From Acidaminococcus massiliensis (GTDB lineage: Bacteria > Bacillota > Negativicutes > Acidaminococcales > Acidaminococcaceae), in the NCBI RefSeq assembly GCF_900095825.1, contig NZ_LT608315.1, forward strand, positions 1,786,311 to 1,850,310: a stretch of DNA of 64,000 nucleotides, in the 5' to 3' direction. Below, piece by piece: positions 35,401-50,139 of the stretch (position 1 is the stretch's first letter; each line of letters begins with the position of its first letter). Under the pieces are notes generated by a model that was not told the DNA's origin, ran no database searches, and saw only the letters and a program-made list of their open reading frames with translations. Both the position numbers and the translations under genes were made by a program.

Positions 35401-35533
35401 GCATGCCTGAAAAAATAAAAGGCGGCGAAGGGCTCCCTGTCTCAGGTTTCTTGAACATACGTTTTGTCAAGTCTTTATTATTTTTTGGGCCATGATATAA
35501 TAGGTACGATTTTGCAGGAAGGGAGGGATGGAT

Positions 35534-36244
35534 ATGCACATTGCCGGCTGGCAGAAAGTATCCCTGGTGGATTATCCAGGAAAAGTGGCCTGCACCCTTT
35601 TTACCGGCGGCTGCAATCTCCGCTGTCCGTACTGCCACAACAGTGAACTCCTGGAGGGCCCGCTCCCTTCCCAGGATATCCAGGAAGTGTTTGCCTATTT
35701 GGAGGCCCGCAGGGGCATCCTGGACGCTGTGGTGGTCAGCGGCGGCGAACCCTGCCTCCAGCCGGATCTGCCTGCTTTCCTGGAACGGCTGAAAAGAGAG
35801 GGTCTCTTGGTGAAATTGGATACCAACGGCTGTTTCCCCCTTCTCCTGGAACGGATCCTCCAGGAAGAGCTGGTAGATTATGTGGCCATGGATTGGAAAA
35901 ATGCCCCGGACCAGTATGGGGTCACCACCGGCCGGGAGGATGTCCCGGTGGCCGCTGTGGCCCGGAGCCTGGAACTGCTGCTGGAGGGGAAGGTTCCGTT
36001 TGAACTTCGTACAACGGTTGTGGAACAGCTGCATAATGAACGTTCGTTCGAAAAAATCAGGGACTTCCTGGAACCTCTGGCTGCCAAAACTGGGAAAAAA
36101 ATCCCGGCCTTTTACCTCCAGGCCTTCAAAGATCGGGAGACGGTCCCTTTTGCCGGCTTCACTGCACCGGACCGGAAGACCTTGGAACGGTATGGGGCCT
36201 TATTGGAACCCATTGCGGACCGTGTCATGATACGTGGCGTTTAG
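35534..36244 (+). CDS. nrdG: anaerobic ribonucleotide reductase activating protein NrdG (radical SAM)
   Basis: Radical-SAM enzyme that installs the glycyl radical on NrdD; 236 residues. The 4Fe-4S motif CNLRCPYC lies in LFTGGCNLRCPYCHNSEL near residue 28, followed by VVVSGGEPCLQ. It resembles the longer, NrdG2-like activases rather than the 155-residue E. coli form. Start 35534 has GGGAGGG 6 bases upstream; ATG 35528 is in frame but directly abuts that site. A TATAAT at 35496-35501 gives a possible -10. It precedes nrdD by 121 bases, and that gap holds a separate promoter. Confidence 0.9.
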   Translation: MHIAGWQKVSLVDYPGKVACTLFTGGCNLRCPYCHNSELLEGPLPSQDIQEVFAYLEARRGILDAVVVSGGEPCLQPDLPAFLERLKREGLLVKLDTNGCFPLLLERILQEELVDYVAMDWKNAPDQYGVTTGREDVPVAAVARSLELLLEGKVPFELRTTVVEQLHNERSFEKIRDFLEPLAAKTGKKIPAFYLQAFKDRETVPFAGFTAPDRKTLERYGALLEPIADRVMIRGV

Positions 36245-36315
36245 ACACAACATTTAGTATACAACGTTGTATATAACCACTACATGTTGACAATCTGTAG
36301 ATTCCGTTCTACAAT
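36245..36315 (+). promoter_or_regulatory. nrdD promoter with two NrdR-like boxes
   Basis: ACACAACATTTAGTAT (36245-36260) agrees with the NrdR consensus ACACWATATATWGTGT at about 13 of 16 positions. CCACTACATGTTGACA (36277-36292) agrees at about 10. The two start exactly 32 bases apart, the tandem spacing known for NrdR boxes. A perfect 16-base palindrome TATACAACGTTGTATA (36258-36273) lies between. The second box ends in the -35 TTGACA (36287-36292), which is followed after 17 bases by TACAAT (36310-36315). Confidence 0.7.
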
Positions 36316-36365: not shown

Positions 36366-38780
36366 ATGTATTCCGTGGTAAAACGCGATGGCCAGATCGT
36401 TGATTTTGACGTGACCAAGATCAGCAGCGCCATTACGAAGGCATTCGAAGCACTGCACAAAAACTATCATCCCAGCATCATCAATATGCTGGCACTGCAG
36501 GTGACGGCTGACTTCGATTCCAAGATCAAAGATGATCTGATCAGTGTGGAAAGCATCCAGGACAGTGTGGAAAAAGTCCTGTCCGATTCCGGCTATGCCG
36601 ATGTGGCAAAAGCCTATATCCTGTACCGGAAGCAGCGGGAACAGATTCGGAACGTCAATTCTTCCCTTTTGAACTACAAGGATCTGGTGGACAACTACCT
36701 GCGGGTGAATGACTGGCGGGTGAAGGAAAATTCCACCGTCACCTATTCTGTAGGCGGGCTGATCCTTTCCAACAGCGGGGCCATCACCGCCAACTACTGG
36801 CTCAATGAGATCTACGACAAAGAAGTGGCCGACGCCCACAAAAGCGCAGCCATGCACATCCACGATCTGAGCATGCTCACTGGCTACTGTGCCGGCTGGA
36901 GCCTGAAACAGCTGATCCAGGAAGGGCTGGGGGGGATTCCTGGGAAAATCACTTCTTCTCCTGCCAGCCACCTTTCTACCCTGTGCAACCAGATGGTGAA
37001 CTTCCTGGGGATCATGCAGAACGAATGGGCCGGAGCCCAGGCTTTCTCTTCCTTCGATACTTACCTGGCGCCTTTTGTGAAGAAGGACAACCTGAGCTAC
37101 AAAGAAGTGAAACAGTGCGTCCAATCCTTCATCTACGGCGTGAACACTCCCAGCCGGTGGGGCACCCAGGCGCCTTTTTCCAACATCACCTTGGACTGGA
37201 CCTGCCCGGAGGATCTGAAGGATGTGCCCGCCATCGTAGGGGGCAAAGAGCAGGATTTCACCTATGGGGACTGCAAGAAGGAAATGGATATGGTGAACAA
37301 GGCCTTCATCGAGAACATGATCGAAGGGGACGCCAACGGGAGAGGGTTCCAGTATCCCATCCCCACCTATTCCATCACCAAGGATTTCGACTGGAGCGAA
37401 ACGGAAAACAACCGGCTGCTCTTTGAAATGACCGCCAAATACGGCACGCCTTATTTCTCCAACTATATCAATTCCGATATGAAGCCCAGCGATGTGCGGA
37501 GCATGTGCTGCCGGCTGCGGCTGGATCTCCGGGAACTGCGGAAAAAATCCGGGGGCTTCTTCGGGTCCGGGGAATCCACCGGTTCTGTAGGGGTGGTCAC
37601 CATCAACATGCCCCGGATCGCCTATCTGGCCAAGGACAAGCCGGATTTCTATGACCGGCTGGACCACATGATGGACATTGCTGCCCGGAGCCTGAAGACC
37701 AAACGGACGGTGATCACCAAGCTGCTGGATGCAGGGCTGTATCCTTATACCAAACGGTATCTGGGGACCTTCAAGAACCATTTCAGCACCATCGGCCTCA
37801 TCGGCATGAACGAAGTGGGGCTCAACGCCAATTGGCTGCGGAAGAACCTGACCCATCCGGAAACCCTGGCCTTCACCAAAGAAGTGCTGATCCATATGCG
37901 GGAACGGCTGAAGGATTACCAGGAAAAATACGGCGACCTGTACAACCTGGAAGCCACTCCGGCGGAATCCACCACCTACCGGCTGGCCAAGCATGACAAG
38001 GAACAGTATCCGGACATCATCACGGCCAATGAACATGGGACCCCGTACTACACCAATTCTTCCCATCTGCCGGTGGGCTATACCCAGGATCTGTTCACGG
38101 CCCTGGATATGGAAGACGATCTCCAGACCCTGTACACCTCCGGTACCGTGTTCCATGCCTTCCTGGGCGAAAAATTGCCGGATTGGCAGTCCGCCGCCGG
38201 ACTGGTGCGGAAGATTGCCAACAATTACAAGCTGCCGTACTTTACCCTGTCTCCCACTTACAGCATCTGCCGGGAACACGGGTACCTGACGGGTGAGCAG
38301 TATACCTGCCCCTACTGCGGTGAGAAGACGGAAGTCTACAGCCGGATCACCGGGTATTACCGGCCGGTGCAGAACTGGAACGATGGGAAAGTCCAGGAAT
38401 TCAAGGACCGGAAAGTCTATGATCTGGGCCAGTCCCACCTGCACAAGGGGGAAGCTCCGCAAGAACGGCCGGTGTTCCAGAAGCCGGCGGTGAAACCGGT
38501 TCCGGCAGATGCGAAACATCTGGCCAAGACCGGGACGGAACAGGAGAACACCTGGATCCTTTTCGGGACCCATACCTGCCCCAACTGCAAGATGGCCGTC
38601 CGGGAACTGGAAAAACACGGTGCGGCTTTTAGGGAAATCTTTGCGGAGGAACATCCGGAACTGGCCGAGAAATACCAGGTCCAGAGTGCACCGACCCTGT
38701 TGGTGAACCAGGGAGATACCCTGAACAAAATCGAAGGGTTCGGACCCATCCGGGCCTTCATCAAGAAGCAGGGGATGTAA
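36366..38780 (+). CDS. nrdD: anaerobic ribonucleoside-triphosphate reductase NrdD with fused C-terminal redoxin domain
   Basis: Class III ribonucleotide reductase making deoxynucleotides without oxygen, 804 residues. Residues 1-95 are an ATP-cone (MYSVVKRDGQIVDFD), the allosteric activity domain. The catalytic barrel follows. A zinc-site region with SICREHG and CPYCGEK lies near 636-651, and the radical glycine is Gly663 in RITGYYRPVQNW. After a short linker, residues about 727-804 form an extra thioredoxin/glutaredoxin-like domain with CPNC at 738-741 and SAPTLLVNQGD. NrdD normally ends soon after the glycine, so this looks like a natural fusion with its electron donor. Start 36366 is the normal family N-terminus; a TTG at 36342 is in frame. 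Confidence 0.95.
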   Translation: MYSVVKRDGQIVDFDVTKISSAITKAFEALHKNYHPSIINMLALQVTADFDSKIKDDLISVESIQDSVEKVLSDSGYADVAKAYILYRKQREQIRNVNSSLLNYKDLVDNYLRVNDWRVKENSTVTYSVGGLILSNSGAITANYWLNEIYDKEVADAHKSAAMHIHDLSMLTGYCAGWSLKQLIQEGLGGIPGKITSSPASHLSTLCNQMVNFLGIMQNEWAGAQAFSSFDTYLAPFVKKDNLSYKEVKQCVQSFIYGVNTPSRWGTQAPFSNITLDWTCPEDLKDVPAIVGGKEQDFTYGDCKKEMDMVNKAFIENMIEGDANGRGFQYPIPTYSITKDFDWSETENNRLLFEMTAKYGTPYFSNYINSDMKPSDVRSMCCRLRLDLRELRKKSGGFFGSGESTGSVGVVTINMPRIAYLAKDKPDFYDRLDHMMDIAARSLKTKRTVITKLLDAGLYPYTKRYLGTFKNHFSTIGLIGMNEVGLNANWLRKNLTHPETLAFTKEVLIHMRERLKDYQEKYGDLYNLEATPAESTTYRLAKHDKEQYPDIITANEHGTPYYTNSSHLPVGYTQDLFTALDMEDDLQTLYTSGTVFHAFLGEKLPDWQSAAGLVRKIANNYKLPYFTLSPTYSICREHGYLTGEQYTCPYCGEKTEVYSRITGYYRPVQNWNDGKVQEFKDRKVYDLGQSHLHKGEAPQERPVFQKPAVKPVPADAKHLAKTGTEQENTWILFGTHTCPNCKMAVRELEKHGAAFREIFAEEHPELAEKYQVQSAPTLLVNQGDTLNKIEGFGPIRAFIKKQGM

Positions 38781-46196: not shown

Positions 46197-47831
46197 ATGT
46201 TTCGCAGGATCAACCGTTGGTGCCGGGAAATCTGGGAACGGAACCAGCGTTTCAAGACAGCTTTTCTCGGCAGCTGGGGAATCTTTTTGGTAACCCTGGG
46301 GCTCACCGTCCTGGGAAAGGGAGAACAATGGATGAGATGGACGGCGGCCAGCCAGGGGATCCTGGCTGGGCAGCTGGTGATGCTTTTTTCCGTGCCCTGG
46401 CGGCTGTACAACGAACGGTACGGCCGGACCGGACCCCGGCGGGAAGCGGTCAATTTCCTGCTTTTCCTCCTGCTCTGGCGGAGCCTGGAACAGCTTCCCT
46501 CCTTCAACGACTATCTATTCATGGGTCTTTGCGGAACCGCGGCTCTGTCGGCTGCCCTGACTCTCTTTTTCTGCGATGACCCGGATGGCAGGAAGGGGCT
46601 TTTTCCCGCTTTTCTCCTGGCCCTTGGCAAAAGCCTGCTCCTGGGAGGGCTGGTCCTTATCCTTTTGGGCCTCACCCTGTCCGGGATCAAGATGCTCCTG
46701 TACCCGCTGCTGTCCCTGGAATGGCTGTGGCTGTCCTGTATCCTGTCCTTGGCAGCGGCTTGGCAGGTGCTTTTGGCCCAGATCCCCCGGCAAGACGAAC
46801 CTTTGGCGCTGCCGGGCTGGTACCCTTCTCTCTGCCGGAACCTGCTGCTGCCGGCGGCGGTGTTCCTTTTGGCCATCCTTTATGTCTATCTGGGCAAAAG
46901 CCTGCTGGCAGGAGCCCTGCCGGTGGGCGTCATGAACCCCTATGGATCCTGTGCCCTGGCCTTTTATGCCCTGTTCTACTTTTCCTATCCGGAACAGGAA
47001 CTGCCCTGGGTGCGGAAAGTACTGAAATGGGGAGCGCTCCTGCTGGTCCCTGTGGCGGCGGCCCAGCTTTGGGGCGTCTGGATCCGTCTGGAAGCCTACG
47101 GGCTCACCAGCCTCCGGTATCTGTCCCTTTGCTGCACCTGCGTGGGGCTTAGTGTCCTGATCTGGGGCATCACCAAGCAAAAGCCCCGGAAGCTGTACCT
47201 GCTGTGCGGGATCCTCAGCGGGATCCTGGCCTTTACTCCCCTGAACCTGGTGGATCTGCCCGCCTGGTTCCAGTTCCGGCGCCTGGAAGAAGCCATCACC
47301 CGGAACCACCTGCTCCAAGAGGGGAGTTTGGTCAGTGCCAAAGGGATCCCACCAGAAGACGGGGAAAGGATCCTCAGCAGCTATGTGTACCTGGGCCGTT
47401 CTGCCGGCCGGTGGCGGTATCCTTTGGTGGCGCAGATCAAGGGCTCTCCGTTCCTGGCCACCCTGCCGCTGCCGCCCAAAGAAAAAAGCCGTGCCGGTTC
47501 CCGGTATTTCAACTACCGCCAGGAACTGACGACACTGCCGGTCAGCGGCTATTCCCGGGTGGTGATCCTGAAAGGAGCGGTCATCCAACAGAACCGCCTG
47601 CATGTTTCCGGAAAAGGGAATACTGGGTACGATCTGCCCATAGACCCTGGGTACCTGCAGATGCTGCGGGAAAAATATCCCTCCGGGGGACAGATCGAGG
47701 AAAAAGACCTCCAGTACCAGCCGGAAGAAGGGAAGCTGCTGCTCTTTACCCAGCTGCTGGGGACCGGTGACGGTTATGACCAGAAGGGGAAGAGCACCGT
47801 CAGCGTCCATGGCTACCTGCTGGAGCGCTGA
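46197..47831 (+). CDS. DUF4153 multi-pass membrane protein
   Basis: 544-residue protein with about ten to twelve hydrophobic segments in the first 370 residues, then a soluble C-terminal part of about 170 residues. The segment LYVYLGKSLLAGALPVGVMN followed by GLTSLRYLSL and AFTPLNLVD matches the DUF4153 pattern. Function of the family is not established. GAGGAGGAA lies about 6 bases before ATG 46197; an in-frame ATG at 46152 has no site. Closely follows the DUF3298 gene (52 bases) and may be co-transcribed. Confidence 0.72.
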   Translation: MFRRINRWCREIWERNQRFKTAFLGSWGIFLVTLGLTVLGKGEQWMRWTAASQGILAGQLVMLFSVPWRLYNERYGRTGPRREAVNFLLFLLLWRSLEQLPSFNDYLFMGLCGTAALSAALTLFFCDDPDGRKGLFPAFLLALGKSLLLGGLVLILLGLTLSGIKMLLYPLLSLEWLWLSCILSLAAAWQVLLAQIPRQDEPLALPGWYPSLCRNLLLPAAVFLLAILYVYLGKSLLAGALPVGVMNPYGSCALAFYALFYFSYPEQELPWVRKVLKWGALLLVPVAAAQLWGVWIRLEAYGLTSLRYLSLCCTCVGLSVLIWGITKQKPRKLYLLCGILSGILAFTPLNLVDLPAWFQFRRLEEAITRNHLLQEGSLVSAKGIPPEDGERILSSYVYLGRSAGRWRYPLVAQIKGSPFLATLPLPPKEKSRAGSRYFNYRQELTTLPVSGYSRVVILKGAVIQQNRLHVSGKGNTGYDLPIDPGYLQMLREKYPSGGQIEEKDLQYQPEEGKLLLFTQLLGTGDGYDQKGKSTVSVHGYLLER

Positions 47832-47862
47832 AATCTCAAATCGAAGGAAGGGAATGCCGCCT

Positions 47863-48783
47863 ATGACCAAACGCCAAGAAGCCATCCTCTGCATGCTGGT
47901 GGCTGCCTTGTTCTTTTGCCTGACGGAAATCTGTATGAAGAAGATCAATGGGGATCTGAACGGGATCCAGGCCAATGCCACCCGCTATCTCCTGGCCGGC
48001 CTCTGCCTCCTGCCCTGGAGCCGGAAGCAGCTGGCCGCCCGCCATACCCGGATCACTTGGGCCCAGCAGAAATTCTGTTTCCTCCTGGGATTCGTAGGCA
48101 TCACCATCGTAGGGCCGCTGTACCAGATGGCCTCGGTGGTCCTGGGGGCCAGCCATACGGCGGTGATCTTTTCCAGCACGCCGCTTTTCATCACGGTGCT
48201 GGCCGCGCTCCTTTTGGGGACGCCCATCACCCGGCGGGAGATCCTTGCCCTGGCCCTCCAGGTGCTGGCCATCGGGGTGCTGGTGGATCCCTTCCACATG
48301 ACCATGGATCCCCTGGGGCTCCTGGCCCTTTTGATCTGCGTCCTGGGGTACAGCCTCTATGCCGTGGGAGGCAAGAAACTGATGCCGGCCCTGGGCAGTG
48401 TGACGGTGACCGCTTGGACCTTCTTCTGGAGCGGGCTCCAGCTGACGGCCCTCGCTCTTTTCTCCCATGTGCCGGCTGCAGCCCAGTTCCTGACGGCTCA
48501 TGGGCTGGCACGGTATGCCCGGATCTCCCTTTTGACCGGGTATACCTGGGCCAATCTGCCCTGGGTACTGGTGCTGTACCTGGGGGTCACCCTCACCGCC
48601 GTCCTCTGCTGGTTCCACGCCATGGAATACGGCTCCATCACCCTGGGGAGCCTGACCTATTTCATCAAACCGGCCCTGAGCCCGGTGTTTGCCTGGCTGC
48701 TGCTGGGAGAGGCCATCACCCTTTCCATGGCAGCGGGTATGGCACTGATGTTGCTGGGCGCTGGGATTGCCCTGAAAAAATAG
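47863..48783 (+). CDS. DMT family (EamA) transporter
   Basis: Drug/metabolite transporter of 306 residues with ten predicted membrane helices in two EamA repeats. Typical stretches are GIQANATRYLLAGLCLLPW in the first repeat and YGSITLGSLTYFIKPALSPVFAWLLLGEAITL at the end of the second, seen in part as LGSLTYFIKPALSP. The exported compound is unknown; amino acids or metabolites are usual. Start 47863 has AAGGAAGGGA about 9 bases upstream; ATG 47854 lies too near that site. Confidence 0.87.
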   Translation: MTKRQEAILCMLVAALFFCLTEICMKKINGDLNGIQANATRYLLAGLCLLPWSRKQLAARHTRITWAQQKFCFLLGFVGITIVGPLYQMASVVLGASHTAVIFSSTPLFITVLAALLLGTPITRREILALALQVLAIGVLVDPFHMTMDPLGLLALLICVLGYSLYAVGGKKLMPALGSVTVTAWTFFWSGLQLTALALFSHVPAAAQFLTAHGLARYARISLLTGYTWANLPWVLVLYLGVTLTAVLCWFHAMEYGSITLGSLTYFIKPALSPVFAWLLLGEAITLSMAAGMALMLLGAGIALKK

Positions 48784-48828
48784 GATTCGCTTGAAAATAT
48801 CATGCTTTGAGAAAGGAAATGGACTGTT

Positions 48829-50139
48829 ATGAAAGAAATCGACGATGCGCTTTTGCAGGAATTCCGTTCTGCCTATGAAAAAGACCGGGAAGCCCAGACC
48901 CTGAACAGCGCCCTGGCCAAGACCGATCTGGCCGACTTGGCCTTCGTGCCCATGAAAGCGGCCCTCCACCAGGGACCTTTTGCGGTGGAAGTGAAGACCC
49001 GGGGCATCACCGCCCAGCAGAAATCCGGCCGGTGCTGGCTTTTTGCGGCTCTCAACATCCTCCGGGAAATCGTGGCGGAAAAATGCGGACTGGAACAGTT
49101 CCAGTTGTCCCAGAACCACCTCAGCTTCTATGACAAGCTGGAAAAAGCCAACAACTTTTTGGAAATGGTGATCCAGCAGGCCGGGGAACCGGTGAAGGGC
49201 CAGAGCATGCAGTACGTGCTCCGGGGCATGGTGGACGGGGGCTACTGGAGCGAAGCCGCCCATCTGGTGGAAAAATACGGGGTGATGCCCCAAACGGCCT
49301 GGCCGGAATCTTACCAATCGGAACATACGGACCGTTTCCTGGCTGCCATGAACCGGCTGCTGCGGAAGGATGCCCTGGAACTGCGGGAACTGGTCCAGGC
49401 CGGGGAAGATCCCTATCCCCGGAAAAAGGAAATGCTGGCCGAAGTCTATAAAGCGGAGTGCATCGCCTTCGGGGCCCCTGTGGAGACCTTCGATTTCGCC
49501 TGGCGGGACAAGGAGAAGCAGTACCACTGCGACAGGAACCTGACGCCCAAGGAGTTCTATGAGAAATATGTGGGGCTGGCCCTGGAGGAGTATCTGCCGG
49601 TGATCAACGAACCGACGCCGGACAAGGAACTGGATACCCCCATCGTGTTCCATGCTGTGGAAAATATGGTGGGCCGGGATATGGCCGCTCTGAACCTGTC
49701 CCAGGAAGCTCTGGAAGACCTGTGCATCCGCCAGCTCCAGGCCGGAGAGCCGGTGTGGTTCGCCTGCGATGCCGGGGCCTACGGGGCCCGGAAGGAAGGC
49801 ATCTGGGATCCGGACAGCGTCCAAGTGGAAAGACTCCTGGGCGGGTTCTCCCTGGAGATGCCCAAAGGGAAACGGCTGGAATACGGAGCCAGTTCCGCCA
49901 CCCATGCCATGCTCCTTACCGGAGTGGATTTCGATGGCAATGGCCGGCCCACCCGGTGGAAAATCGAGAACTCCTGGGGCAAGGAGGTAGGGAAGGACGG
50001 GTATTTCGTCTGCTCGGAAAAATACTTCCGGGAATTCGTCTATGAAGCGGTGATCCGCCGGAGCCACTTCACGCCGGAACAGCGGACCATGCTCCAGAAA
50101 GAACCCATCCGGATCAATCCCTGGGACGAAGATGTGTAA
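48829..50139 (+). CDS. pepC: C1-family aminopeptidase (PepC/bleomycin hydrolase)
   Basis: Cytoplasmic cysteine aminopeptidase, 436 residues, family length. The papain-like triad is visible: Cys69 in QKSGRCWLFAALN, His359 in SSATHAMLLTGV and Asn381 in KIENSWGKEVG. The family forms a hexameric barrel with the C-terminus in the active site. Such peptidases supply amino acids to an amino-acid fermenter. AAAGGAAATGG precedes the ATG. The stop lies 8 bases inside the next gene. Confidence 0.93.
   Translation: MKEIDDALLQEFRSAYEKDREAQTLNSALAKTDLADLAFVPMKAALHQGPFAVEVKTRGITAQQKSGRCWLFAALNILREIVAEKCGLEQFQLSQNHLSFYDKLEKANNFLEMVIQQAGEPVKGQSMQYVLRGMVDGGYWSEAAHLVEKYGVMPQTAWPESYQSEHTDRFLAAMNRLLRKDALELRELVQAGEDPYPRKKEMLAEVYKAECIAFGAPVETFDFAWRDKEKQYHCDRNLTPKEFYEKYVGLALEEYLPVINEPTPDKELDTPIVFHAVENMVGRDMAALNLSQEALEDLCIRQLQAGEPVWFACDAGAYGARKEGIWDPDSVQVERLLGGFSLEMPKGKRLEYGASSATHAMLLTGVDFDGNGRPTRWKIENSWGKEVGKDGYFVCSEKYFREFVYEAVIRRSHFTPEQRTMLQKEPIRINPWDEDV

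Follow-up and report, generated by a model that had tools for sequence, protein, structure and literature searches.

A class III ribonucleotide reductase with a redoxin domain fused to its C-terminus in Acidaminococcus massiliensis

From where does a class III ribonucleotide reductase (RNR) draw its electrons when a candidate reductant is part of the same polypeptide? The question is raised by an open reading frame (ORF) at positions 36366–38780 of the stretch of Acidaminococcus massiliensis DNA analysed here (64,000 nucleotides of contig NZ_LT608315.1; hereafter the window). The ORF encodes a class III RNR (NrdD), with an NRDD domain, a C-terminal glycyl-radical segment and an adjacent gene for its NrdG partner, and the protein continues beyond that segment into a domain resembling thioredoxin and glutaredoxin. 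We conclude that it is probably an NrdDh4 (NrdD2-like) enzyme with a dithiol reductant tethered at the C-terminus, and from this architecture we infer the redox steps set out below.

Pfam detects Glutaredoxin at residues 731–770 of the full protein (E = 1.4e-6, 28.9 bits against a cut-off of 22.9) and, when the last 98 residues are searched alone, Glutaredoxin (6e-8), Thioredoxin_2 (3.6e-7) and Thioredoxin (8.2e-6), all of which exceed their cut-offs. The original prediction had described a complete thioredoxin/glutaredoxin-like domain fused to NrdD and had proposed a Pfam search of the C-terminus as a check; these redoxin-family matches, together with the CPNC motif and Pro776, bear it out. 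The positions it gave for the glycyl-radical residue, Gly663, and for CPNC (738–741) agree with ours, and Gly663, which lies within SRITGYYRP, is a glycine in 158/158 rows of fused proteins. Only the length of the continuation needed correction: about 78 residues had been said to follow Gly663, which fits the redoxin itself (728–804, ~77 residues), whereas 141 residues follow the glycine, the remainder of the NRDD domain (as far as ~686) and a linker (~687–727) lying between. Sequence matches of the tail in the Protein Data Bank (PDB) are led by a glutaredoxin-like protein (9.5e-8) and a protein disulfide oxidoreductase (8.1e-7), followed by thioredoxins. An AlphaFold2 model built from 87 sequences (mean predicted local distance difference test score, pLDDT, 88.6), which supersedes an earlier one from 14 sequences (mean pLDDT 69.9), folds residues 730–801 as beta-alpha-beta-alpha-beta-beta-alpha; the first helix (739–750) begins at CPNC, and Pro776 precedes the strand 777–782. 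In redoxins of the thioredoxin/glutaredoxin type the conserved proline is cis. The linker is modelled with low confidence (residues 698–725, pLDDT <50). Fold searches of the PDB with the whole model returned NrdDs, other RNRs and glycyl radical enzymes among the matches listed, and these speak to the enzyme, not to the redoxin.

The redoxin is also strongly conserved. In an alignment of 159 tail rows, in which the window's own sequence is counted twice, Cys738, Cys741 and Pro776 are invariant, Pro739 is kept in 158/159 and Asn740 in 146/159, and both redoxin cysteines are present in all 158 distinct fused sequences (158/158, the window's own included). This degree of conservation far exceeds chance. 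When the window's gene is compared with four close relatives, the ratio of nonsynonymous to synonymous substitution rates (dN/dS) is 0.048–0.099 for the redoxin, whose synonymous sites are near saturation in the pair with locus L007 (dS 1.95), and 0.030–0.053 for the core; the linker gives 0.363–0.382 in the three pairs where a value was computable. The redoxin is therefore under purifying selection, almost as strict as that on the enzyme, a constraint that the linker does not share. Linker length is variable across the fused proteins, with a median of 30 residues (measured from motifs, with extremes that are not reliable), and is ~40 residues here. It is hardly credible that the tail is a functionless extension, whether degenerate or there by chance: nothing was found in favour of this idea, the fast evolution being confined to the linker, and it is contradicted by the three invariant residues, by a redoxin dN/dS of 0.05–0.10 and by retention of the tail across two classes.

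The type of NrdD that carries this tail was assigned from its active site. A phmmer alignment to the NrdD of Thermotoga maritima, with positions counted by hand, pairs Cys175, Cys381, Cys382 and Glu529 with Cys125, Cys329, Cys330 and Glu495, and places Phe398 opposite Ile359 at a finger-loop tip that has no cysteine. Among 87 aligned NrdDs, 81 have Cys-Cys at 381–382, Ser at 407 and Glu at 529; at those positions the other six (L019, L021, L022, L193, L195 and L202) show GC, Asn and either Ile or Tyr. The Cys-Cys of the MCCR motif is found in every fused row (156/156) and every unfused row (122/122) with letters there. According to PMC4493059, MCCR is the NrdDh4 variant of an SCCR motif found only in NrdDh, and one criterion for NrdD2 is the active-site glutamate. 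The same paper reports both SCCR cysteines to be essential in the enzymes of T. maritima and Neisseria bacilliformis, thioredoxin to be usable by the latter, and the former to depend on a cell-extract protein for which Escherichia coli thioredoxin is no substitute. The formate-dependent NrdD of Prevotella copri, whose sequence we compared, has GC and Asn, as in the six outlier rows (PMC11226230). Judged by its motif, the fused NrdD falls within the definition of NrdDh4, and because of MCCR, Glu529 and the split of 81 to 6 we assign to it, on sequence grounds, the pattern of the redoxin-dependent NrdDh/NrdD2 group and not that of the formate-type NrdDs. Two further cysteines, Cys207 and Cys303, were considered as fusion-specific relay residues (frequencies of 0.99 and 1.00 in fused, 0.10 and 0.28 in unfused proteins) and rejected; they mark lineage rather than fusion, because unfused members near the fused clade retain both.

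In the mechanism that we propose, NrdG would install the radical on Gly663, from which it would move to an MCCR cysteine, most likely Cys382, to initiate the nucleotide reaction. Reduction of the nucleotide would leave a disulfide among Cys175, Cys381 and Cys382, which the tethered CPNC redoxin may then reduce by thiol–disulfide exchange, either in cis or across the dimer. The oxidised tether would in turn be re-reduced by the thioredoxin system of the cell, by thioredoxin reductase (TrxB) directly or via a thioredoxin. Such an enzyme would be independent of formate and would be recycled by TrxB, as the original prediction proposed. A stronger version, which we offer tentatively and as possible rather than probable, is that the enzyme is self-reducing: the redoxin would dock at or enter its own barrel at each turnover, the MCCR pair would alternate between radical cysteine and redox relay, and only a reductase for the tether would be needed, with no diffusible redoxin or formate. 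If true, this version would identify the protein that reduces this particular NrdDh subgroup and explain how the SCCR/MCCR loop gains access to the active site.

The chief alternative role for the redoxin is activation or repair: the tethered domain would hold cysteines in NrdG, or in the glycyl-radical/zinc region, in their reduced state so that the glycyl radical can be installed, and the electrons for turnover would come from free thioredoxin. The redoxin does sit just behind the glycyl-radical segment and, among loci with at least 1.2 kb on each side, an NrdG2-like ORF lies upstream of the fused nrdD in 100/146 and downstream in 1. We nevertheless regard this role as improbable; two observations tell against it, though not decisively, namely the MCCR/Glu pattern of the fused enzymes and the linkage of a redoxin ORF to an nrdD of like pattern in a separate clade from virus contigs (support 0.999). 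There the nrdD is unfused and a redoxin-like ORF lies directly upstream in 11/11 cases, 10 of which were detected with a profile of the fused tails alone and the last (L184) only with a widened profile. Relative to unfused nrdD the NrdG2-like ORF is downstream in 70/116 loci and upstream in 4, so that gene order varies with fusion.

Redoxin genes near nrdD were sought by scanning the flanks, which ranged from none (contig ends) to ~4 kb, for same-strand frames of at most 160 amino acids, with the profile widened by 11 solo redoxins that the fused-tail profile had detected first. In a genome of the window's genus (G005), an ORF of the Glutaredoxin family (28.8 bits, cut-off 22.9; motif CRRC) starts 19 nt past the nrdD stop, an arrangement that looks like fission of a fused gene, on a short contig with no more of nrdD than its end. 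Within the fused clade, virus contig L132 has a redoxin-like ORF upstream of nrdD, yet this ORF has no Pfam match at 0.01.

The fusion is not peculiar to the window, as a search for it in other NrdDs, also proposed in the original prediction, makes plain. A match was counted as fused when it reached profile position 785 or beyond; the query was a 14-row alignment (A1) of mostly fused proteins, and two candidates per genome were scored. Within the window's class, Negativicutes, this NrdD is present at E ≤1e-120 in 32/350 sampled genomes, 27 of which have a fused copy. Within the class of a Butyrivibrio genome (G061; we infer Clostridia), this NrdD is present in 128/391 sampled genomes of completeness ≥80 and is fused in 63 (64/133 match rows, some of them ended by contig ends, as in G473). 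Many of the named relatives come, by their record titles, from animal guts. Every tail among the best 80 loci of the genome collection, as ranked by the mostly fused query, has CPNC or CPKC. Fused proteins make up 158 of the 282 distinct sequences and are over-represented there and in the tree, the loci being the best 80 found with a mostly fused alignment. In a FastTree phylogeny of 267 sequences (core residues 110–686, midpoint root), a single clade of 162 tips (support 0.849), in which several inner supports are low, contains all 153 fused ones. By parsimony seven changes are needed, in keeping with a fusion gained once and lost several times, and such losses suggest that the tether can be replaced. 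A plasmid location for the fused gene was considered and dropped, as the plasmid collection gave no near match.

Phages also carry the gene. The phage record MT835493.1 (human faeces, unannotated) encodes at 47428–49815 on the minus strand a protein 74.5% identical to the fused protein over residues 1–800, redoxin included, and the fused NrdDs of virus contigs L123–L128 have no ATP-cone, that is, they combine the redoxin tail with absence of the usual dATP switch. Intein-like inserts are found in this NrdD group at two sites, each beside a catalytic cysteine. One, at ~384–759 of a 1174-aa frame on a virus contig (L190, fused), stands just before the first MCCR cysteine (AM/CLHPDTEV...LTGN/CCRL, slashes marking the junctions), and the other, in L141 and L142 (856-aa frame, N-terminal half), just before the counterpart of Cys175 (GGY/CFTGDTRV...VVHN/CAGWS). 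An unfused protein inside the fused clade, L260, has CTLC at its C-terminus, reminiscent of the cysteine pairs with which class I and II reductases end; a C-terminal CxxC tail as the replacement for the redoxin in unfused members was rejected, L260 being the only case among the unfused tails displayed.

The genome offers more than one source of electrons. It holds two NRDD matches, the fused NrdD and a PRK09263-type NrdD (961.3 bits, cut-off 657), which we take to be formate-dependent from the example of the E. coli enzyme and whose gene is followed by a 177-aa ORF resembling NrdG by eye; each of five other fused genomes examined has at least a second NRDD match. One thioredoxin reductase scores above its cut-off and is adjoined by a thioredoxin-like ORF (84 bits, cut-off 96.8). 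A second, shorter thioredoxin-reductase-like flavoprotein with CATC (128.3 bits, cut-off 343.45) is encoded at 1495–2352 of L335. Pyruvate formate-lyase is also present (TIGR01255, 1140.8 bits, cut-off 994.2). Formate shortage was dismissed as the reason for the fusion, since with this lyase and the PRK09263-type NrdD in the cell it is not an obvious cause. Both electron routes are thus open to the cell, and each NrdD may use its own.

A number of observations weigh against a tethered reductant. A formate route exists in the cell, as just described, and no biochemistry of the fused NrdD or of a fused relative was found in the literature searched. None of the 18 NCBIfam families listed for the 98-residue tail attains its own cut-off, so that the tail is a redoxin of no subfamily named there; the NrdH model TIGR02194 gives 25.2 bits, below its cut-off of 85.75, which leaves the tail outside NrdH. 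Cys381 is an extra cysteine, but at the beta-strand position that PMC11226230 gives for the third cysteine this protein has Ser407; the T. maritima NrdD, classed as NrdD2 in PMC4493059, likewise has Ser at this position in the phmmer alignment. Nine unfused tips, with frames as sequenced, are nested in the fused clade, and the tether can thus be lost. A same-strand redoxin-like ORF was found in the flanks of 16/134 unfused loci, duplicates included, a count that refutes any general rule by which an unfused enzyme has a neighbouring redoxin gene, and a related nrdD of Oceanotoga phage vB_OteS-UFV02 has no redoxin ORF within 3 kb.

Some of these points favour the view that the tether is mere convenience, with free thioredoxin or another redoxin equally effective and the fusion serving only to raise local concentration. 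The nine unfused members are in line with it, as are the 118/134 unfused loci in whose flanks no redoxin-like ORF was found (including that of G002, L322, from the window's genus) and the thioredoxin-like ORF beside trxB. Purifying selection on the redoxin and the cysteine pair kept in 158/158 fused sequences are less easily accommodated, and we consider mere convenience rather unlikely.

The features of the locus are collected in the table below. PRK08270 (NF006126) matches residues 2–686 at 1150.4 bits (cut-off 548) and has 684 model positions; because it stops at residue 686, the redoxin tail lies outside NCBI's family model. The NrdR-box-like pair upstream of the fused nrdD matches 25/32 positions of the consensus; when the window was scanned every 250 bp, the highest-scoring steps reached 24 (one step), 22 (a single step) and 20 (twelve steps). 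The PRK09263-type nrdD also has such a pair, upstream of position 1162 of L001, 26 bp apart and matching 28/32 positions of the same consensus. The spacer of NrdR boxes is normally 15–16 bp (PMC12051234).

Features of the fused nrdD locus in window coordinates
Feature	Coordinates	Strand	Details
nrdD-redoxin fusion gene	36366..38780	+	804 aa, ATG at 36366, stop included; single uninterrupted frame
ATP-cone domain	36372..36641	+	residues 3-92; Pfam PF03477, E 5.9e-23
NRDD catalytic domain	36726..38420	+	residues 121-685; Pfam PF13597, E 3.4e-192; Cys175, MCCR 380-383, Glu529 and Gly663 by alignment
MCCR motif	37503..37514	+	residues 380-383
Linker, poorly conserved	38424..38546	+	residues 687-727
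Redoxin domain	38547..38777	+	residues 728-804; CPNC 738-741 = 38577-38588; Pro776
nrdG2-type activase gene	35528..36244	+	238 aa; TIGR02495, 194.7 bits, cut-off 131.15; upstream of nrdD
NrdR-box-like site pair, 16 bp apart	36245-36260 and 36277-36292	+	between nrdG and nrdD

How the cysteine pair of NrdDh/NrdD2 enters the active site is posed as an unsettled question in PMC4493059. With the presumed reductant in the same chain, the fused enzyme would offer a one-protein system for trapping a redoxin–enzyme disulfide and solving the structure of the complex. The fused arrangement is common in gut anaerobes and makes the electron source of the enzyme easy to test.

The known systems closest to the fused protein are the NrdDh/NrdD2 enzymes of T. 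maritima and N. bacilliformis. They share its fold (T. maritima chains, Z 29–33), the counterparts of Cys125, SCCR and Glu495 and a finger-loop tip without cysteine, and a redoxin-type reductant is expected for both; the protein described here differs in having MCCR (NrdDh4), an N-terminal ATP-cone and a C-terminal fused redoxin. PRK08270 is alike over residues 2–686 and its model omits the redoxin tail, whereas the PRK09263-type NrdD (L001) is alike in being a class III reductase whose N-terminal region resembles an ATP-cone and differs in having GCRS for CCRL, Tyr for Glu529 and no tail. A redoxin fusion to NrdD is not without precedent: Rozman Grinberg et al. 2018 (PMC6187632) reported glutaredoxin (Grx) fusions for all RNR components and listed one grx::nrdD, from Lachnospiraceae bacterium TWA4. 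In the literature searched, which left out most subscription papers, no other account names a grx::nrdD fusion, and none describes NrdDs with a C-terminal redoxin as a widespread family. The Grx::NrdB of Facklamia ignava, in which the fused Grx is an efficient reductant (PMC6187632), resembles our protein in joining a redoxin covalently to an RNR component, but there the Grx sits at the N-terminus of the class I radical subunit and the assay used glutathione, and here the redoxin is at the C-terminus of the class III catalytic subunit. Redoxin–RNR fusions, including one grx::nrdD, are thus already known; the present protein adds to them an NrdDh4 whose own chain includes the presumed reductant, an arrangement that is common in two anaerobe classes.

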